Shown here in pieces: positions 1-6,417 of a DNA stretch of 64,000 bases. A model generated the notes under the pieces. The model searched no databases. It saw only the letters and a list, made by a program, of their open reading frames with translations, and was not told the origin of the DNA. The translations under genes and the position numbers were made by a program. Within the stretch, counting starts at the first letter, position 1; the number at the start of each line of letters is the position of its first letter. Location: NCBI GenBank assembly GCA_017539165.1, contig JAFYHN010000005.1, positions 1-64,000 on the forward strand. Direction: 5' to 3'. Origin of the DNA: Eubacterium sp. (GTDB taxonomy: Bacteria; Bacillota; Clostridia; Lachnospirales; Lachnospiraceae).

Positions 1-759
1 CTTACATATGGTGGATCACTTGCTCGTACAGAGGCTACAGGTTATGGTCTTCTTTACCTCACAGAGGAAATGGTTAAGTGCCATGGCGATAAGATGGAAG
101 GTAAGGTAGTTGCAATATCTGGTTCAGGTAACGTTGCTATCTACGCTACAGAGAAGGCTCAGCAGCTTGGAGCTAAAGTTGTTACAGTTTCAGATTCAAC
201 AGGTTGGATCTATGATGAAGAAGGAATCGACGTTGCACTTCTTAAAGAAGTTAAGGAAGTTAAGAGAGCACGTCTTACAGAGTATGCTGCAGCTCGTCCA
301 TCAGCTAAGTACTTCGAGAAGAAGAACGGTGAGCACGGTGTATGGCAGTACAAGGTAGATATCGCTCTTCCATGTGCTACACAGAACGAGCTTGATCTTG
401 AGGATGCTAAGATGCTTGTTGCTAATGGTGTTCAGTACGTAGCAGAAGGTGCTAACATGCCTACAACAATCGAAGCTACAGAGTACTTCCAGAAGAACAA
501 CGTACCTTTCGTTGGTGGTAAGGCTGCTAACGCAGGTGGTGTTGCTACATCAGCACTTGAGATGAGCCAGAACTCAGAGAGACTTTCATGGACATTCGAA
601 GAAGTTGATGCAAGACTTAAGAACATCATGGTTGGTATCTATCACAACATCGATGATGCAGCTAAAGAGTACGGTATGGAAGGCAACTATGTTGCAGGTG
701 CTAACATCGCCGGATTCAAGAAGGTTGTTGATGCAATGATCGCTCAGGGTGTTTGCTAA
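1..759 (+). CDS. gdhA: NADP-type glutamate dehydrogenase, C-terminal part (5' cut by window edge)
   Basis: The frame is open from base 1 and begins inside the protein with TYGGSLARTEATGYG, the conserved segment of hexameric glutamate dehydrogenases, so the true start lies upstream of the window. The enzyme reductively aminates 2-oxoglutarate to glutamate in the cytoplasm, the main ammonium-assimilation route in many rumen and gut Firmicutes. The Rossmann fingerprint AISGSGNVAIYATEKAQQLG follows, then the C-terminal AEGANMPTT and VGGKAANAGGVATSALEMSQN motifs typical of the GdhA family. The C terminus (VVDAMIAQGVC) is complete. Codon use is strongly biased, as in highly expressed genes. A strong terminator follows at once. 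The last 33 bp recur at 5666-5698. Confidence 0.97.
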   Translation, partial: LTYGGSLARTEATGYGLLYLTEEMVKCHGDKMEGKVVAISGSGNVAIYATEKAQQLGAKVVTVSDSTGWIYDEEGIDVALLKEVKEVKRARLTEYAAARPSAKYFEKKNGEHGVWQYKVDIALPCATQNELDLEDAKMLVANGVQYVAEGANMPTTIEATEYFQKNNVPFVGGKAANAGGVATSALEMSQNSERLSWTFEEVDARLKNIMVGIYHNIDDAAKEYGMEGNYVAGANIAGFKKVVDAMIAQGVC

Positions 760-760
760 T
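728..760 (+). repeat. Left copy of 33-bp direct repeat: 3' end of gdhA
   Basis: The last ten sense codons, the stop codon and one further base of gdhA match 5666-5698 at 32 of 33 positions. The only difference is T750 versus C5688, which is silent. Together the copies bracket a two-gene segment, as expected for an element that integrates into the 3' end of a gene and restores the reading frame. Confidence 0.85.
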
Positions 761-790
761 AACAAACCTAATATAGTATAAGAACTATTC

Positions 791-827
791 AAATCCCGTA
801 AGCCGGTGCTTACGGGATTTTTTCTGT
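791..827 (+). terminator. Intrinsic terminator of gdhA
   Basis: A perfect 13-bp stem (AAATCCCGTAAGC, 791-803, with GCTTACGGGATTT, 808-820) closes a four-base CGGT loop and runs into a T tract. A degraded relative (shared CCCGTAAGC half) lies after the second gdhA-end copy at 5732-5767. Confidence 0.92.
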
Positions 828-922
828 TAAGCAAAAGATTATATGTTACAATTAGTTTGTGTTGTATCAATGGTTTCTGGAAGAATTAAGTTGTATTGTC
901 ATAAAATGATGAGGGTATTAGA

Positions 923-3874
923 TTGAATATTGAATCATACAATCTCGATTCGTTAAGAGATTTGGTTAGGAAATTACAAAAAGAAAATAATGAATTAAAA
1001 GATATATTATTGAAGAATGACATTCCTTTTGCTTCGGGAGATGTTTTTGAAAGTATTATCGAAGATCATTCAGAATATGATCCCGATCAGGGAGAACGGA
1101 TTGTTTCCAGATGGATTACAGACGAAATGGTAAAGCTCTTTTATTCCGTGTTCTGGGGAAGAGAAGATGTCTTTGCAAAGAGAGGAAAGAACGGAGGATA
1201 TTTTCCTCAATGTGAGAATTTTTGGAAGGATACGTTATGTCCAAAGAAGAATAATAGTAAATTCAAATGTGATGATTGTGAAAATAGACATTGGAAAAGA
1301 CTTGAGCTTTATCATGTAAGAAATCATCTGTTTGGTTATAAAGAAGATGGATCAGATGTAATTGGAGTGTATCCACTTTACGAAGATGGAACATGCAGAT
1401 TTATCGTATATGATTTTGATAATCATGAGAAAGGGTCTGAACAGACTGATTTTGCAAATACTGATAACGAGTGGCAGGATGAAGTTAATGCTTTAAGAGA
1501 AATATGTGAATCAAACGGTATTAGGCCATTGGTTGAGCGTTCTCGTTCAGGTAGAGGAGCACATGTTTGGATTTCGTTTTCAGAACCTGTAAATGCAGGT
1601 CTGGCGAGAAATTTTGGTTTTATGCTTCTTGATAAAGGTATGATGTCATATAACCTTAAAACATTCAAATATTATGACAGAATGTATCCTTGTCAGGATA
1701 ATGCAAATAGCCTTGGGAATCTTATAGCTTTACCTCTTCAAGGTCGTGCTTTGAAGAATGGTAATAGTGCATTTGTTGATGCCAATTGGAATGCTTACCC
1801 TGACCAGTGGTCAGAATTACTTGATTTATCGAGACGTCTTTCATTGAATGATATTATGTATTATATGGAAAAGTGGCAGGCAGAGATAGCTCAAGGTAGA
1901 GGTTTTGCTACGATTGACAATAGTATAAAAAGAGTAAAGCCATGGAAGAAGCGAGAGTCGTTTATAAGTAATGATGTAGTAGGGAAAATGCATATTACTT
2001 TATCGGATGGTATATATGTAGATGCTCTTAATCTTGCGCCAAGACTGCAAAACCAAATAAGAAGTCTTGCAGCATTTGATAATCCGGAGTTTTATAAAAG
2101 ACTTAAGATGAGAAAATCGAATTATTATCAGTTTCAGGCAATTTATCTTGGAAGAGATACGGAGGGGTATATTATCATTCCAAGAGGGCTCCGTGAAGAG
2201 ATAATATCAGAGTGTAAAACTGCAGATATCCCATATGAAATAATAGATGAGCGCGAAAAAGGAATTCCTATTAAGGTTTCATTTAATGGGGAACTTAAGG
2301 AAGAACAACAGATTGCAGTAGATAAAATGCTTTCGTTTGACAACGGAGTGCTCAGTGCTGCAACTGCATTTGGTAAGACTGTTGTATCAAGCTATATCAT
2401 TGCCCAAAGAAAGGTGAATACGTTAATTATTCTTCAGAGTAAAGATTTGTTGGAACAGTGGGTGGAATCTCTTCAGAAATTTCTGGATATAGATGAAGAA
2501 CCGCCGACATATAAGACAAAAACAGGCAGGATTAAAACAAGAGAAAGCGTAATAGGTAGATTATCGGCTGGGAAGGATACATTAACGGGAATAATTGATG
2601 TGGCGATGGTGGGCTCGTTATACGCTAAGGGAAACTATCATAACATGATGAAAAAGTATGGTATGGTAATTATGGATGAGTGCCACCATGTAGCGTCAAG
2701 CACCGGTATGAATGTGATGCAGAATATTAATGCAAGGTATGTATATGGATTTACAGCTACGCCTAAAAGAAGTGATCAGTTGGATAAAGAGATATTCATG
2801 CTTATAGGTCCGATACGTCATTCGTATTCAGCACTCGAAAGGGTTGAAAAACAAGGAATACCACATGTCGTTTATCCAAGATTTACAAGAACAGTCCGAA
2901 TATATGAAGATAAAAATGATCCGACTCCATTGTATAAGCTTATCAGTGGTGATAACGATAGGAATGATATGATCATAGATGATACGCGTTTTGCAGTAAA
3001 GGAAGGACGAACACCTGTTATTCTTACACGTTTCAAAGAACATGCGAAATATTTATATGATAATCTTAAGACTGATGCGGATAAAGTGTATTTGATGTAT
3101 GGTGATAATACAGATAAGGAAAATAGTTCTATACGTAAAGAATTACAACAATTATCGAATGATAATTCACTTATTTTGATTGCGACAGGTCAAAAAATAG
3201 GTGAAGGTTTTGATTTTCCTAGGCTGGATACGCTTATGCTTGCAGCGCCGGTTTCTTTTGATGGTAGGTTAGAACAATATCTGGGACGCCTTAACCGTGA
3301 TTATCCAGGAAAGAAAGAAGTCCAGGTCTATGATTATATAGATTCACATATTGGCATGTTTGAGAAAATGTATTCAAAACGTCTTAGAACATATAGAAAT
3401 GTTGGATTTACTGTTATTACAGATATGATATCAACTAAGCAGACGGCAAACGCAATATACTCATCCGATAATTATATGGATACATTTGAAAGAGATTTAG
3501 TAGAGGCTAATAGTAGAATTATCATATCCAGCCCTGATATACAAATAAACAAGATAGATCGATTCTTAAATCTTATTTCTAAACGCCAGGAAGCGGGTGT
3601 GAGAATTACGGTTATAACAACAAATCCAGACGAAATAAGGTATGGTAGTACAGAGTTTTGTCATAGCATGGTTAATACTATGATTTCAAGCGGAATAGAT
3701 GTAATAACCTTGGATGAGGTGGAGGAACATTTTGCAGTTATAGATGAGACCCTGGTATGGCATGGTGGAATGAACCTTTTAGGGCGTGATGATGTCTGGG
3801 ATAATCTGATGAGGATACATTCAGAGAAGGTTGCATCTGAACTGCTGGAGATAGCGTTGAAGAAGAGAAAATAA
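923..3874 (+). CDS. TOTE-type conflict protein: AEP primase + XPB-like SF2 helicase + PLD-like domain
   Basis: A 983-residue fusion. Residues 9-33 are a short coiled coil and 97-122 hold a four-Cys cluster. An archaeo-eukaryotic primase-like core follows, with the metal-binding pair in VYDFDNHEKG (about 163), RSGRGAHVWISF (about 210) and GNLIALPLQGRALKNG. The helicase has Walker A ATAFGKT (about 480), DECHH (584), GFTATPKR and motif VI QYLGRLNRDYPG (about 785). The C terminus resembles a PLD nuclease half, but reads EEHFAVIDETLVWHGGMN where H-x-K-x4-D-type proteins have HxKFAVID, so the catalytic His and Lys look replaced. This AEP/XPB-like helicase architecture is known from the TOTE systems, thought to act on foreign or mobile DNA; that role here is inference. 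The start is TTG with GAGGG 8 bp upstream, because upstream ATGs in the other frames stop at once. Confidence 0.85.
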   Translation: MNIESYNLDSLRDLVRKLQKENNELKDILLKNDIPFASGDVFESIIEDHSEYDPDQGERIVSRWITDEMVKLFYSVFWGREDVFAKRGKNGGYFPQCENFWKDTLCPKKNNSKFKCDDCENRHWKRLELYHVRNHLFGYKEDGSDVIGVYPLYEDGTCRFIVYDFDNHEKGSEQTDFANTDNEWQDEVNALREICESNGIRPLVERSRSGRGAHVWISFSEPVNAGLARNFGFMLLDKGMMSYNLKTFKYYDRMYPCQDNANSLGNLIALPLQGRALKNGNSAFVDANWNAYPDQWSELLDLSRRLSLNDIMYYMEKWQAEIAQGRGFATIDNSIKRVKPWKKRESFISNDVVGKMHITLSDGIYVDALNLAPRLQNQIRSLAAFDNPEFYKRLKMRKSNYYQFQAIYLGRDTEGYIIIPRGLREEIISECKTADIPYEIIDEREKGIPIKVSFNGELKEEQQIAVDKMLSFDNGVLSAATAFGKTVVSSYIIAQRKVNTLIILQSKDLLEQWVESLQKFLDIDEEPPTYKTKTGRIKTRESVIGRLSAGKDTLTGIIDVAMVGSLYAKGNYHNMMKKYGMVIMDECHHVASSTGMNVMQNINARYVYGFTATPKRSDQLDKEIFMLIGPIRHSYSALERVEKQGIPHVVYPRFTRTVRIYEDKNDPTPLYKLISGDNDRNDMIIDDTRFAVKEGRTPVILTRFKEHAKYLYDNLKTDADKVYLMYGDNTDKENSSIRKELQQLSNDNSLILIATGQKIGEGFDFPRLDTLMLAAPVSFDGRLEQYLGRLNRDYPGKKEVQVYDYIDSHIGMFEKMYSKRLRTYRNVGFTVITDMISTKQTANAIYSSDNYMDTFERDLVEANSRIIISSPDIQINKIDRFLNLISKRQEAGVRITVITTNPDEIRYGSTEFCHSMVNTMISSGIDVITLDEVEEHFAVIDETLVWHGGMNLLGRDDVWDNLMRIHSEKVASELLEIALKKRK

Positions 3875-3955
3875 GTTTATACTATTAGTCCAATGACAGT
3901 ACTGGTGATTCGTGTTATTATAATAATATATTTTATGAGATAAGAGGTAGACAGG

Positions 3956-5548
3956 ATGAGAGCAGAAGACATAATAAGAATGGCTCATGATATTCTGGAT
4001 AAGTGTTCCATTGAAAATGACTACATAGAATATAAGAAATCTGCGTTGATTAAGGATAGTATTCTTAAGACTGCATGTGCATTTGCGAATAATTATATGA
4101 ATCGAGAAATAGGTCTTATATTTATTGGTGTTGAAGAAGAGGATGATAAGGAAACAGGTAGAAAGGCAGTACCGATTCGTCCTATTTCAGGAATAGAAGA
4201 GGCAAAAATAGAAACTACTGAAAATGAGTTAAAATCGCTAATTTCTCACATTCATCCGAAACCAATATATCATCTGTTACAAGATAAAATTGATGATGAG
4301 TTTTACATTATTTTGGCTGTAGAACCAGGATATGATGGACCATACGAAACTGATCAAAGGGCTGAAAAAGATAAGAAGATTAATCTAAAACCGGGTAGAT
4401 ATATACGTGTTAGGAGAGATAGTAGAAAACCTAATAAGCGGGAAGAGTTTGAACTCTTAAAAAAGTTTTCTGATTATCGATTTTCATCGGAATTGAATGA
4501 AACCGCCACTTTAGATGATCTTAATTATGAATATATGAAGGAGTATTTGGTTCAGACTAAAGCAGCCTCAGATATAAGAGAATTATCAAAGATAGATATG
4601 GCAAAAGCGTTGGATTTAATTGATAATTCTGAGTATGGAGGATATCGTGCGAAGAATTTTGCGGTTCTTATGTTTTGCGATAGACCAGAGGATTTTATTC
4701 CTGATGCATATGTTAGAGTGATTCGAGAAATTTCTGGTACAGATAAGATGGAGGCTAGAATTTTTAATGGTCCAGTATGGATACAAGCTCAACAAGTAAG
4801 AGAATACTTCAGAGATTATATACTTTCGACATATACTGTTCGTGAATCAGGTGTATCTGGTGCACATCGTGTGAGTAATTGGCCTTTAGAAATGTTTGAG
4901 GAGTTGGCGACGAATTGCATACTTCATAAGGATTATTCTAAAAATAATTCAATAGAAATAGAAGTTTACCGAGATCAAATAGCATTTATCAATCACAATC
5001 GCCCTATGCCACCTGTGACAATCGAGGATTTAAACGAAAAAACAGTATTTACAGACCGCCAGTATGTTAATGACGAGCTGAAAGAGATGTTTTTTAAGTT
5101 GGATCTTATTCAGTCTTATGGATCTGGAATTAGACGAGCTAAAAAAGCTATGGAAAATAATGGTTCGCCCCAAATTATTTTCAGTCCAGATAATGACATA
5201 GATGATTACACATTAGCAATTGCTCCTATTAATACTGAATTTGCTAGGATTCAGAGTGAGGACCATATTATCAATAAAAATGGCACAGAGAATGGCACAG
5301 AGAATGGCACAGAGAATTTGCCGGATGAAATACGAAACCTTCTTGCTAGGTTCAGTGCTGGTAAGCGTAGTAAGGCTACTGAAATTGCAAAATTGATTCA
5401 TGAGGATAGTCAAATTACAATTGTACGTATGATCCAGATTACAGGGATTAGTGAGCGAACAGTAAAAAGATATTTAAAGGAATTTCAAGAGGCTGGTGCT
5501 CTTCGAAGAGAAGGTAGTGACACAAGTGGTGAATGGATTCTTTTATAA
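3956..5548 (+). CDS. AlbA_2 / GHKL-ATPase regulator with C-terminal winged helix (COG2865 type)
   Basis: A 530-residue protein. Residues about 15-165 form an AlbA_2 (Schlafen-like) domain, with YIEYKKSALIKD followed by ALAVEPG-like and GRYIRVRRDSRKPNKREE segments. About 310-400 is a HATPase_c_4-like module (FEELATNCILHKDYSKNN, then INHNRPMPP and LIQSYGSGIRRAKKAM). Residues 455-530 are a winged helix (ITGISERTVKRYLKEFQEAG). Family members are usually annotated as ATP-dependent transcriptional regulators, and some sit beside defence genes. AGAGG lies 8 bp before the ATG. The 81-bp gap to the helicase gene holds an AT-rich promoter-like stretch, so the two genes need not be one operon. A 12-bp codon repeat at 5279-5314 lies in the linker before the winged helix. 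A function as regulator or partner of the upstream helicase is inferred from position only. Confidence 0.82.
   Translation: MRAEDIIRMAHDILDKCSIENDYIEYKKSALIKDSILKTACAFANNYMNREIGLIFIGVEEEDDKETGRKAVPIRPISGIEEAKIETTENELKSLISHIHPKPIYHLLQDKIDDEFYIILAVEPGYDGPYETDQRAEKDKKINLKPGRYIRVRRDSRKPNKREEFELLKKFSDYRFSSELNETATLDDLNYEYMKEYLVQTKAASDIRELSKIDMAKALDLIDNSEYGGYRAKNFAVLMFCDRPEDFIPDAYVRVIREISGTDKMEARIFNGPVWIQAQQVREYFRDYILSTYTVRESGVSGAHRVSNWPLEMFEELATNCILHKDYSKNNSIEIEVYRDQIAFINHNRPMPPVTIEDLNEKTVFTDRQYVNDELKEMFFKLDLIQSYGSGIRRAKKAMENNGSPQIIFSPDNDIDDYTLAIAPINTEFARIQSEDHIINKNGTENGTENGTENLPDEIRNLLARFSAGKRSKATEIAKLIHEDSQITIVRMIQITGISERTVKRYLKEFQEAGALRREGSDTSGEWILL
5279..5314 (+). repeat. In-frame 12-bp tandem repeat (3 units, AATGGCACAGAG)
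   Basis: Three perfect copies plus a partial fourth encode (NGTE)3-N in the linker between the ATPase-like domain and the winged helix. Because the unit is a multiple of three, copy-number slippage changes linker length without breaking the frame. Confidence 0.95.
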
Positions 5549-5642
5549 ATATCTATATTATAAAAGTGGGAAATAATGGATGATAATTTGTTATAGGTGG
5601 AATTCGTAATACACGCGTAATATACACAACCTCTCAGAACCC

Positions 5643-5663
5643 CAGTGTTTATGCTGAACACTG
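5643..5663. other. Inverted repeat beside the right gdhA-end copy
   Basis: CAGTGTT (5643-5649) and AACACTG (5657-5663) form a perfect 7-bp stem with a 7-base loop, ending 2 bp before the right 33-bp repeat. No T tract follows, so it is not an ordinary terminator. It could be a recombinase-recognition arm of the island. The stretch 5549-5642 holds no gene; a tandem CGTAATACAC / CGTAATATACAC lies at 5605-5627. Confidence 0.45.
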
Positions 5664-5665
5664 AT

Positions 5666-5698
5666 TTGATGCAATGATCGCTCAGGGCGTTTGCTAAT
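5666..5698 (+). repeat. Right copy of the 33-bp gdhA 3'-end repeat
   Basis: This reproduces the last codons and stop of gdhA with one silent change (C5688), but no upstream gdhA sequence. It is therefore an isolated gene-end copy, not a second gene. A terminator-like hairpin resembling that of gdhA follows. It reads as the original gdhA tail displaced by an insertion, or as the far attachment site. Confidence 0.85.
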
Positions 5699-5731
5699 CA
5701 TTAATTGAATAGAATTTAAGATGTGAGATAT

Positions 5732-5767
5732 AGTCCCGTAAGCATTGTGTTTATGGGACTTTTCTTA
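5732..5767 (+). terminator. Terminator-like hairpin after the displaced gdhA tail
   Basis: AGTCCCGTAA (5732-5741) pairs with TTATGGGACT (5751-5760), with one G-U pair, and is followed by TTTCTT. It shares the CCCGTAAGC half with the gdhA terminator at 791-827, which supports common origin of the two gene ends. Confidence 0.65.
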
Positions 5768-5841
5768 TGCTATGGTTTTAATAAAATGACAATAATTGAC
5801 ATTTACAGAAATATATTGTAAGTTTTGTATTAGATTTGATT

Positions 5842-5940
5842 AAGGAGGAAGTTTTTGTATGACCACACCTGAGTTTTGCGCATAGCATTGGCTATAGCGA
5901 TTTAATAAATTAACAAGATTTCGTAATAGCCGATGCTCCC
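5842..5940 (+). other. Structured leader with 8-codon ORF upstream of the CD3324-type gene
   Basis: A very strong ribosome site (AAGGAGGA, 5842-5849) precedes ATG 5859, which opens only MTTPEFCA and a TAG. GCATTGGCTAT (5885-5895) then pairs with ATAGCCGATGC (5926-5936) around a 30-base loop, just before the AGGAGG of the next gene. Read through two stops, the frame continues RFNKLTRFRNSRCSLKEK, so the stretch could also be a decayed coding remnant. A weak promoter-like TTTACA/TTGTAT pair lies at 5802-5830. It is unclear whether this is an attenuator, a small RNA or a relic. Confidence 0.35.
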
Positions 5941-5973
5941 TAAAAGAGAAATAATATTTTAGGAGGCGCAATA

Positions 5974-6252
5974 ATGGGCTATTTGAGAGCGGAGGAAGTA
6001 CTTCCGCGTGAATTAATAGAAATGATCCAACAATATACCGACGGAACAAACATTTACATTCCACGCAGAGAAGAAGTGAAAGTTGGATGGGGTGAGAAAA
6101 ATCAGACCAGACAGATGTTTCGTGAGAGAAACGATTCGATATATAATGCTTATCTTTCAGGATGTAAGATAAAGGATATTTCTAAGAGGTTTTGTTTGTC
6201 GGAGAAAAGCATATGGCGTATTGTTGGTCAGGAAAAGAAAAAAGCGGTTTAA
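5974..6252 (+). CDS. CD3324-family small HTH DNA-binding protein
   Basis: A 92-residue protein with the family's features: an N-terminal MGYLRAEEVLPRELIEMIQQ, the basic patch YIPRREEVKVGWGEKN, and a C-terminal helix-turn-helix (IYNAYLSGCKIKDISKRF then LSEKSIWRIVGQEKK). Length matches the family (about 90). Members are small Mor-like putative transcription factors common in Clostridia; their targets are generally unknown. AGGAGG lies 9 bp before the ATG. It is a single-gene unit ended by the terminator at 6262-6298. Confidence 0.8.
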   Translation: MGYLRAEEVLPRELIEMIQQYTDGTNIYIPRREEVKVGWGEKNQTRQMFRERNDSIYNAYLSGCKIKDISKRFCLSEKSIWRIVGQEKKKAV

Positions 6253-6261
6253 AGCTATTTC

Positions 6262-6298
6262 ATCCCCAAGATAAATAATTCTTGGGGATTCTTTTTTT
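6262..6298 (+). terminator. Intrinsic terminator after the CD3324-type gene
   Basis: ATCCCCAAG (6262-6270) pairs with CTTGGGGAT (6281-6289) and is followed by TCTTTTTTT. Confidence 0.92.
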
Positions 6299-6417
6299 GT
6301 CTCAAGTTTAAATATATTTAAAGATGAGGTTGTTAAAACAGGAATAATAAGATAATGTCATATGGTAGATGATGATGTCTGAATAAATATTATAAAGTTG
6401 AGTAAGGAAAAAATATT

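Follow-up and report, generated by a model that had tools for sequence, protein, structure and literature searches.

Recombinase-less defence-type cassettes that probably use the 3′ end of gdhA as an attachment site in Lachnospiraceae

Results

The window analyzed here is a 64,000-nucleotide stretch of Eubacterium sp. DNA from the start of a 92.9-kb contig (C64) in a 3.2-Mb genome (G000), in which a small island lies between two copies of the end of the gdhA gene. Similar units were identified downstream of gdhA in other Lachnospiraceae. We consider it fairly probable that they are recombinase-less cassettes, comparable to cis-mobilizable elements (CIMEs), for which the 3′ end of gdhA serves as an attachment site within a protein-coding gene, and that an enzyme acting in trans would insert them site-specifically. 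The units are probably also exchanged by homologous recombination. At the level of sequence, the comparisons established a common architecture with a conserved right end, different cargo, pairs of occupied and empty sites, a tandem pair, transfer across species and genus boundaries, and a core of about 15 bp at which the copies match within genomes but not between them. Genomes and loci are designated G### and L###, and the comparison set included one genome per species.

The gdhA gene is truncated by the start of the contig, so that the window holds only the last 252 codons. Its last 33 bp are found at 728-760 and again at 5666-5698, 4,938 bp apart. The copies are identical at 32 of 33 positions and the sole difference, GGT to GGC, is silent; none of 100 dinucleotide-preserving shuffles of the window contained such a repeat. 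Each copy is followed by a terminator-like hairpin with a 13-pair stem (791-820 and 5732-5760), and the region 700-6300 has four terminator-like sites where 1.9 were expected. Only two sizeable genes, 923-3874 and 3956-5548, separate the copies, and Pfam recognized no recombinase in either. The first-pass annotation of this DNA had described the repeat 4.9 kb downstream with its silent change, the related hairpins and the two-gene interval with no visible recombinase, all of which were confirmed, and had missed the conserved stretch of about 75 bp that precedes the second copy (about 5583-5665). The features of the unit, all on the + strand, are as follows.

1..759, +, gdhA, 3′ part only (ELFV_dehydrog, PF00208); the contig starts inside the gene
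728..760, +, left copy of the gdhA 3′ end, from repeat comparison
732..746, +, core in the left copy (positions -4 to +10), from left/right match within the genome and variation between genomes
791..820, +, terminator, left end of the unit; G014 (L054) has the same left end after gdhA
923..3874, +, cargo gene 1, AEP primase-polymerase/SF2 helicase/PLD-like fusion of 983 aa with an altered PLD motif (Pfam, alignment)
3956..5548, +, cargo gene 2, SLFN_AlbA_2/HATPase_c_4/winged helix-turn-helix (HTH) protein of 530 aa (Pfam); the partner varies between units
5583..5665, +, conserved right end of the unit, strongest at 5604-5665, from comparison across units
5606..5627, +, two adjacent 11-bp direct repeats, GTAATACACGC / GTAATATACAC, putative arm-type sites
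5666..5698, +, right copy of the gdhA 3′ end, from repeat comparison
5670..5684, +, core in the right copy, from left/right copy comparison
5732..5760, +, terminator that follows the right copy; the stretch directly after gdhA in G059 and G017 resembles it (83%)

The 60-75 bp that precede the second gdhA copy are conserved among many units. This right end reads CGTAATACACRNGTAATATACAC..CYTCYCAGAACCC... and runs to the gdhA-end repeat; across the six units in the comparison, its adjacent 11-bp direct repeats agree with each other at 8-10 of 11 positions. Second gdhA ends were found in 7 of 61 genomes of the genus, at 2.2, 2.9, 4.4, 4.9, 5.0, 8.5 and 10.9 kb, and every one of them was preceded by the right end in one of its subtypes. 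Overall, the right end was detected in 9 of the 61 genus genomes and in six other genera of the family, with a weak match in a seventh.

When the DNA from G053 was used as query against the genus, the upstream part matched at 90% or more in G053, G008 (twice), G031, G014, G000 and G007, and G017 matched at 75%; among 397 family genomes, G239 was found besides the genome of the window. A matrix of 11 right ends retrieved L078 and G007, both outside the matrix. A sequence-only profile built from 13 right ends produced 11 matches at E <= 5.4e-15 in nine genus genomes (G000, G007, G008 with two, G013 with two, G014, G017, G028, G031 and G053), all of which, together with G239, were training sequences and match by construction. 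Beyond the training set, the same profile found G230, G154, G280 and G210 (E <= 1.3e-11) and, as a weak full-length match, G267 (2e-5) among the 397 family genomes. A second profile, from 18 right ends, added G757 when run over 392 genomes of the order, and no full-length match outside the family was found there. By coordinates, L042 corresponds to G239 and L054 to G014. Four pattern scans of viral contigs gave no matches, and positions 5560-5763 of the window matched none of the phage and plasmid records.

The right end could also be read in frame as the 3′ end of a gene (...VIYTTSQNP...AMIAQGVC), an interpretation that was set aside. There are stop codons just upstream in many units, and the right end was therefore treated as DNA, although it may be the remnant of a gene. 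In a search of the 61 genomes with the corresponding 31-aa peptide, all matches down to E 2.3e-4 were right ends, and the remaining ones, among them the right end of G007, were weak (E 0.18 or more). A folded, attC-like site was rejected, as no conserved fold was present (the consensus fold has 5 pairs and -0.78 kcal/mol).

Nineteen right ends, from 17 genomes or contigs, were located with respect to gdhA. Thirteen, from 12 assemblies, share a contig with gdhA (G000, G008 with two, G014, G017, G028, G031, G053, G239, G230, G280, G757 and L078), although that of G230 holds only the last ~100 bp of the gene. Four are limited by their contigs: in G007 the break is inside the helicase gene, in G210 the contig starts inside the right end, and in G267 and G013:C18 the contigs end short of gdhA. 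The other two lie elsewhere. In some cases the assembly is interrupted at the repeat or close to it (at the right copy in G230, within the right end in G210), and one right end, that of G154, is placed away from gdhA, as could happen if the structure were an assembly artefact or an ancestral duplication with no mobility. We find this scarcely credible considering the 13 linked right ends in 12 assemblies, their different cargo and the existence of empty sites.

Fourteen left/right pairs of gdhA ends were compared. Two of them came from G008, those of G007, G154 and G210 spanned contigs, and L078 was dropped as decayed. Copies within a genome matched best from -4 to +10, about 15 bp, relative to the ATG codon of AMIAQGVC. 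At positions -4, -1 and +5, 13 of the 14 pairs matched within genomes versus fractions of 0.51, 0.37 and 0.48, respectively, across genomes. To the left of this core the right copy is mostly element sequence, and differences start from +11 (11/14 matches at +11 and 9/14 at +14). When pairings were permuted, positions -6 to -1 gave 73 matches versus a mean of 59.8, with 0 of 20,000 permutations reaching 73, and the eight pairs of the main subfamily gave 48/48 (p = 0.006), figures to be taken as guides because related genomes are not independent. The pattern fits a strand exchange that requires homology, or else a target duplication of about 15 bp. The latter would result from transposition by an unlinked transposase or a Cas1-like enzyme, with an element whose left end had evolved to restore the last gdhA codons; in its favor, the two copies in a genome match over ~15 bp (-4 to +10), a block that differs from one genome to another. 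We judge it improbable: no transposase or Cas1 family was found among the unit proteins scanned with Pfam, the target is the same gene end everywhere but in G013:C55 and perhaps G154, and the matched block has no sharp length.

To the right of the core, the copies match for 22-29 bp only in G000, G014, G017, G028, G031 and the last copy of G008. The duplication spans the terminator in the first two copies of G008 (170 bp), G053 (179), G154 (144) and G280 (376). The long duplication in G008 is directly explained if units sharing one left end accreted in tandem, and our guess is that such accretion is also behind those in G053, G154 and G280.

The first-pass annotation had proposed the gdhA end as an attachment site, in which case some relatives would have a single end and in others the repeats would enclose different cargo; both were found. 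Twenty genus genomes had at least 12 kb downstream of gdhA; six carried the second copy and 14 did not. The 14 are not all empty: G029 has a degenerate second copy at +233, and both G045 and G029 carry Wadjet-unit sequence after gdhA. That most relatives lack the second copy speaks against both repeats and the same two genes being ancestral. Nor was the primase-helicase unit found beside gdhA without a repeat: a gdhA-end copy accompanied it in G000, G014, G053, G007 and G031. Empty counterparts were identified for the G007 unit (G037/G001), the G008 ToxN unit (G045) and the G757 unit (G068/G395). G037 and G007 share 98.6% identity in gdhA, and in G037 the gene leads into the sequence that follows the right end in G007 (2-217 at 90.6%, 389-1558 at 97.8%). 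In G045, gdhA leads straight into the sequence beyond the inner copy of G008 (2-1556, 97.9%). The distance from gdhA to the shared genes is greater in G757 than in its congeners G395 and G068 by about 4.8 and 5.5 kb, respectively, and its unit measures 4.4 kb from repeat to repeat. The evidence is weaker for the island in the window: the terminator after its right copy is ~83% like the one directly after gdhA in G059 and G017 (2-105), and a stretch further downstream is common to G059 (75%).

The window and G014 share 88.3% identity in gdhA and 94.7% in the region of the island genes, while the window and G007 share 95.3% in gdhA and 73-77% in the island. The Wadjet units of G028 and G045 are 95.7% identical and their gdhA genes 88.5%. 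Between different genera, G239 and G053 share 99.4% identity in PBECR4 and 87.5% in gdhA, and G757 and G230 share an AbiL module at 95.4% over 2,159 bp. Judging from these identities, the units of rumen and gut Lachnospiraceae seem to have spread between species. A region with a LysR-type gene, located after the right end, is also 97% identical between G239 (L042 from 11937) and G008 (L149, after the second right end), which belong to different genera.

Exchange of this kind could be the work of homologous recombination at a hotspot. One ancient insertion would then have been diversified by recombination in gdhA, the terminators, the shared genes and the right ends, without an active site-specific recombinase, and the incoming DNA would have arrived by transformation, conjugation or (lateral) transduction. 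This explanation agrees with the absence of a recombinase nearby in the searches described below, the swapping of partner genes next to the same primase-helicase gene, the recurrence of terminator types across positions and hosts, and the 144-376-bp duplications that include terminators. In addition, defence genes close to phage attachment sites can be mobilized by lateral transduction, according to the available text of the source (PMC12829572). However, it does not explain the origin of a right end joined to a gdhA end in genera with different gdhA ends, where the cores mostly match their own host, nor the unit-sized insertions in G007 and G757. We regard it as possible, if somewhat unlikely, as the whole explanation.

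Judged by family resemblance of the proteins scanned, the cargo appears to consist mostly of defence-type genes. The primase-helicase gene is accompanied by AlbA_2 in G000 and, in a different version, in G014, by Abi_2 in G007, and by PBECR4 in G053 and G031 (by DNA identity to G239). PBECR4 is alone in G239 and occurs with a Phd antitoxin in L078, and ToxN is alone in the first unit of G008. The G028 unit has DUF4143/AAA_14 and JetABCD, identified as Wadjet type I by PADLOC, with a methyltransferase and a GNAT protein ahead of them. JetA, JetB, JetC and JetD were also recognized in the units of G017 and G045, by 96% DNA identity, and in the second unit of G008, by open reading frame (ORF) layout only. 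An AbiLi-like ATPase, RloB, MBL and E2/E1/JAB proteins are found in G230, an AAA_21 ATPase, RloB and MBL in G757, and an HD-CE protein with acyltransferases in G280. The first unit of G031 (acyltransferase, HTH/MazE, GNAT), parts of G280 and, by eye, G154 and G267 do not look defensive. The Wadjet unit of G045 (L130 9240-9440) tracks that of G028 until it stops partway through the first 11-bp right-end repeat, as though loss of the remainder had immobilized it.

Within the window, the product of cargo gene 1 has an AEP-TOTE domain (PF22548, E 3.1e-72), a ResIII helicase and a weak PLDc_2 match below the cut-off; the complete Pfam list for both island proteins is AEP-TOTE, ResIII, DEAD, SWI2_SNF2, PLDc_2, Helicase_C, AlbA_2, HATPase_c_4 and HTH. 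The AEP motifs DFD and SG.GAH are intact in seven of eight aligned sequences, i.e., all those covering that region, and the helicase motifs AFGKT and DECHH in all eight, except for DESHH in G035. The motif expected in PLD proteins is H-x-K. The window (3700-3810) has ExH instead, which is kept in close relatives: five of the eight sequences have E-x-H, and three more distant ones have C-x-[HR] (positions by eye). With this altered motif, the PLD-like nuclease domain may therefore be inactive. TOTE stands for TPR, OB, TBP and Effector, according to the portion of PMC12458937 that was available. The island was previously called TOTE-like, a description that finds no support beyond the AEP domain that it has in common with TOTE conflict systems; the TPR, OB and TBP parts were not found by Pfam in the island proteins. 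The label rests on a single Pfam domain.

An enzyme responsible for insertion was sought near gdhA and elsewhere in the genomes. Pfam revealed no integration or transfer genes in the two genes of the window or in the other unit proteins scanned. Tyrosine recombinases (PF00589) matched in 61/61 genus genomes, with none within 100 kb downstream of gdhA among the matches listed, and serine recombinases (PF00239) in 37/61, with none in those 100 kb; at E <= 1e-5, PF00239 had no match in G013, G014 and G031, all of which carry right ends. Profiles of the genus recombinases, from whose training L334 was dropped because it has no integrase, were run over 8,689 ORFs of 370 sequences, including 80 gdhA loci flanked by at most 10 kb, and in some cases by little DNA on the downstream side, and found no recombinase downstream of gdhA. 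In leave-one-out trials the tyrosine profile recovered 19/19 and the serine profile 11/20, so that the serine scan is weak outside the genus. Tyrosine matches beyond the training loci were limited to L068 and L084, both upstream of gdhA. The matches to the right-end profiles in the genus, family and order genomes included no related integrative and conjugative element (ICE) or integrative and mobilizable element (IME) with matching ends. A 352-aa tyrosine recombinase of G000 (L329, G000:C26:13500-15500) has relatives with 71-73% identity in G017 and G003, and many genus genomes encode proteins of comparable length and profile span; the G000 protein is no more than a candidate for the trans-acting enzyme.

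Only in G616 (L352 1226-1620, G616:C51) did a recombinase coincide with a right-end-like score. A weak partial match there (E 8.3e-5, model 24-83) adjoins a fragment of a serine recombinase (103 aa) and a ParA-like gene, as read by eye. The site has a small inverted repeat and no gdhA core, and the match is probably due to chance.

Discussion

The favored interpretation is that each unit consists of a gdhA end with its own terminator, the cargo, the conserved right end, and the host gdhA end with the old terminator. A circular or linear form would be inserted at the core by site-specific recombination. A recombinase of the tyrosine type, supplied in trans, may bind the 11-bp repeats, and the identical core would provide the homology needed for strand exchange. 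The new terminator would replace the old one, and gdhA would therefore stay intact. Afterwards, units would be maintained in the manner of cis-mobilizable elements, with tandem accretion and further shuffling by homologous recombination. In the window, the primase-helicase may restrict foreign DNA, with AlbA_2 as its partner or regulator.

A number of observations weigh against this interpretation. Two right ends are not next to gdhA: that of G154 is followed by a gdhA end and a terminator on a contig other than that of gdhA, and one in G013:C55 (L238 16203-16930) follows a PBECR4 gene and abuts an HTH gene on the opposite strand, away from gdhA, with no flanking repeat at 15/20 or better in the stretch compared. 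The edge of the core is not sharp (position -7 matched in 11/14 pairs versus 0.54 across genomes), and there are single core mismatches in G280 (-4), G017 (-1) and G239 (+5). A palindromic recombinase core was considered and found to be weak (6/10). Duplications of 144-376 bp extending past the terminator are unexpected from simple integration without tandem units or recombination. No recognizable recombinase was found within any unit among the proteins scanned. Within the genus, the strong right-end matches are the units themselves, with no resident helper with matching arms visible. With no recombinase linked to any unit and no helper found, the class of the enzyme is a guess.

Other systems combine some of the same properties. 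Staphylococcal cassette chromosome (SCC) elements form arrays of different cassettes at one gene end, rlmH, some without a recombinase, and integron gene cassettes join different cargo to a shared terminal site in arrays at one anchor. The gdhA units resemble both; however, the ccr-like serine recombinase of SCC was not found in any unit, no linked integrase was found, and the right end lacks the attC-type fold of integron cassettes. It is conceivable, though in our opinion doubtful, that gdhA is the fixed anchor of an integron-like system in which defence cassettes with a shared double-stranded recombination end are exchanged by a chromosomal recombinase acting in trans, such as the 352-aa protein. 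The closest likeness is to CIMEs, which are described in the available text of PMC5704250 as flanked by att-like repeats, devoid of recombinase and transfer genes, and prone to tandem accretion with ICEs and IMEs. The units have apparent att-like sites at both ends, one of them a gene 3′ end, tandem arrangements, and no recognized integration or transfer genes, either in the unit proteins scanned or with the recombinase profiles over the locus ORFs. They differ from CIMEs in that no related ICE or IME with matching ends was found and in their largely defence-type cargo. The IMEs and genomic islands that, in the same text, occupy the 3′ ends of guaA, rpsI, rplL, trmE and yicC also restore the end of the gene, but encode the recombinase that was not found in the units.

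The first-pass annotation knew of no described attachment site in gdhA, and neither such a site nor the right-end family was named in the open-access literature searched. In pneumococci, a variable locus with a 7-bp repeat lies between gdhA and rplL, according to the available part of PMC10383233. These results point to a probable attachment site in a protein-coding gene, and to a terminal sequence that can be searched for, in carriers of defence genes that would be overlooked by island finders based on recombinases. In Lachnospiraceae of the rumen and gut, the content between the gdhA end and the right end can serve as a marker of new defence genes. The results also raise the question of how cassettes are inserted precisely and move between genera without a recognizable enzyme.

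Just 3′ of the island, the window (5974-6252) encodes a small Mor-like regulator of the CD3324 family (Pfam Mor, NCBIfam CD3324). G007 and G001 have DNA resembling this gene as well, 5.2 kb past the right end and 3.9 kb downstream of gdhA, respectively.

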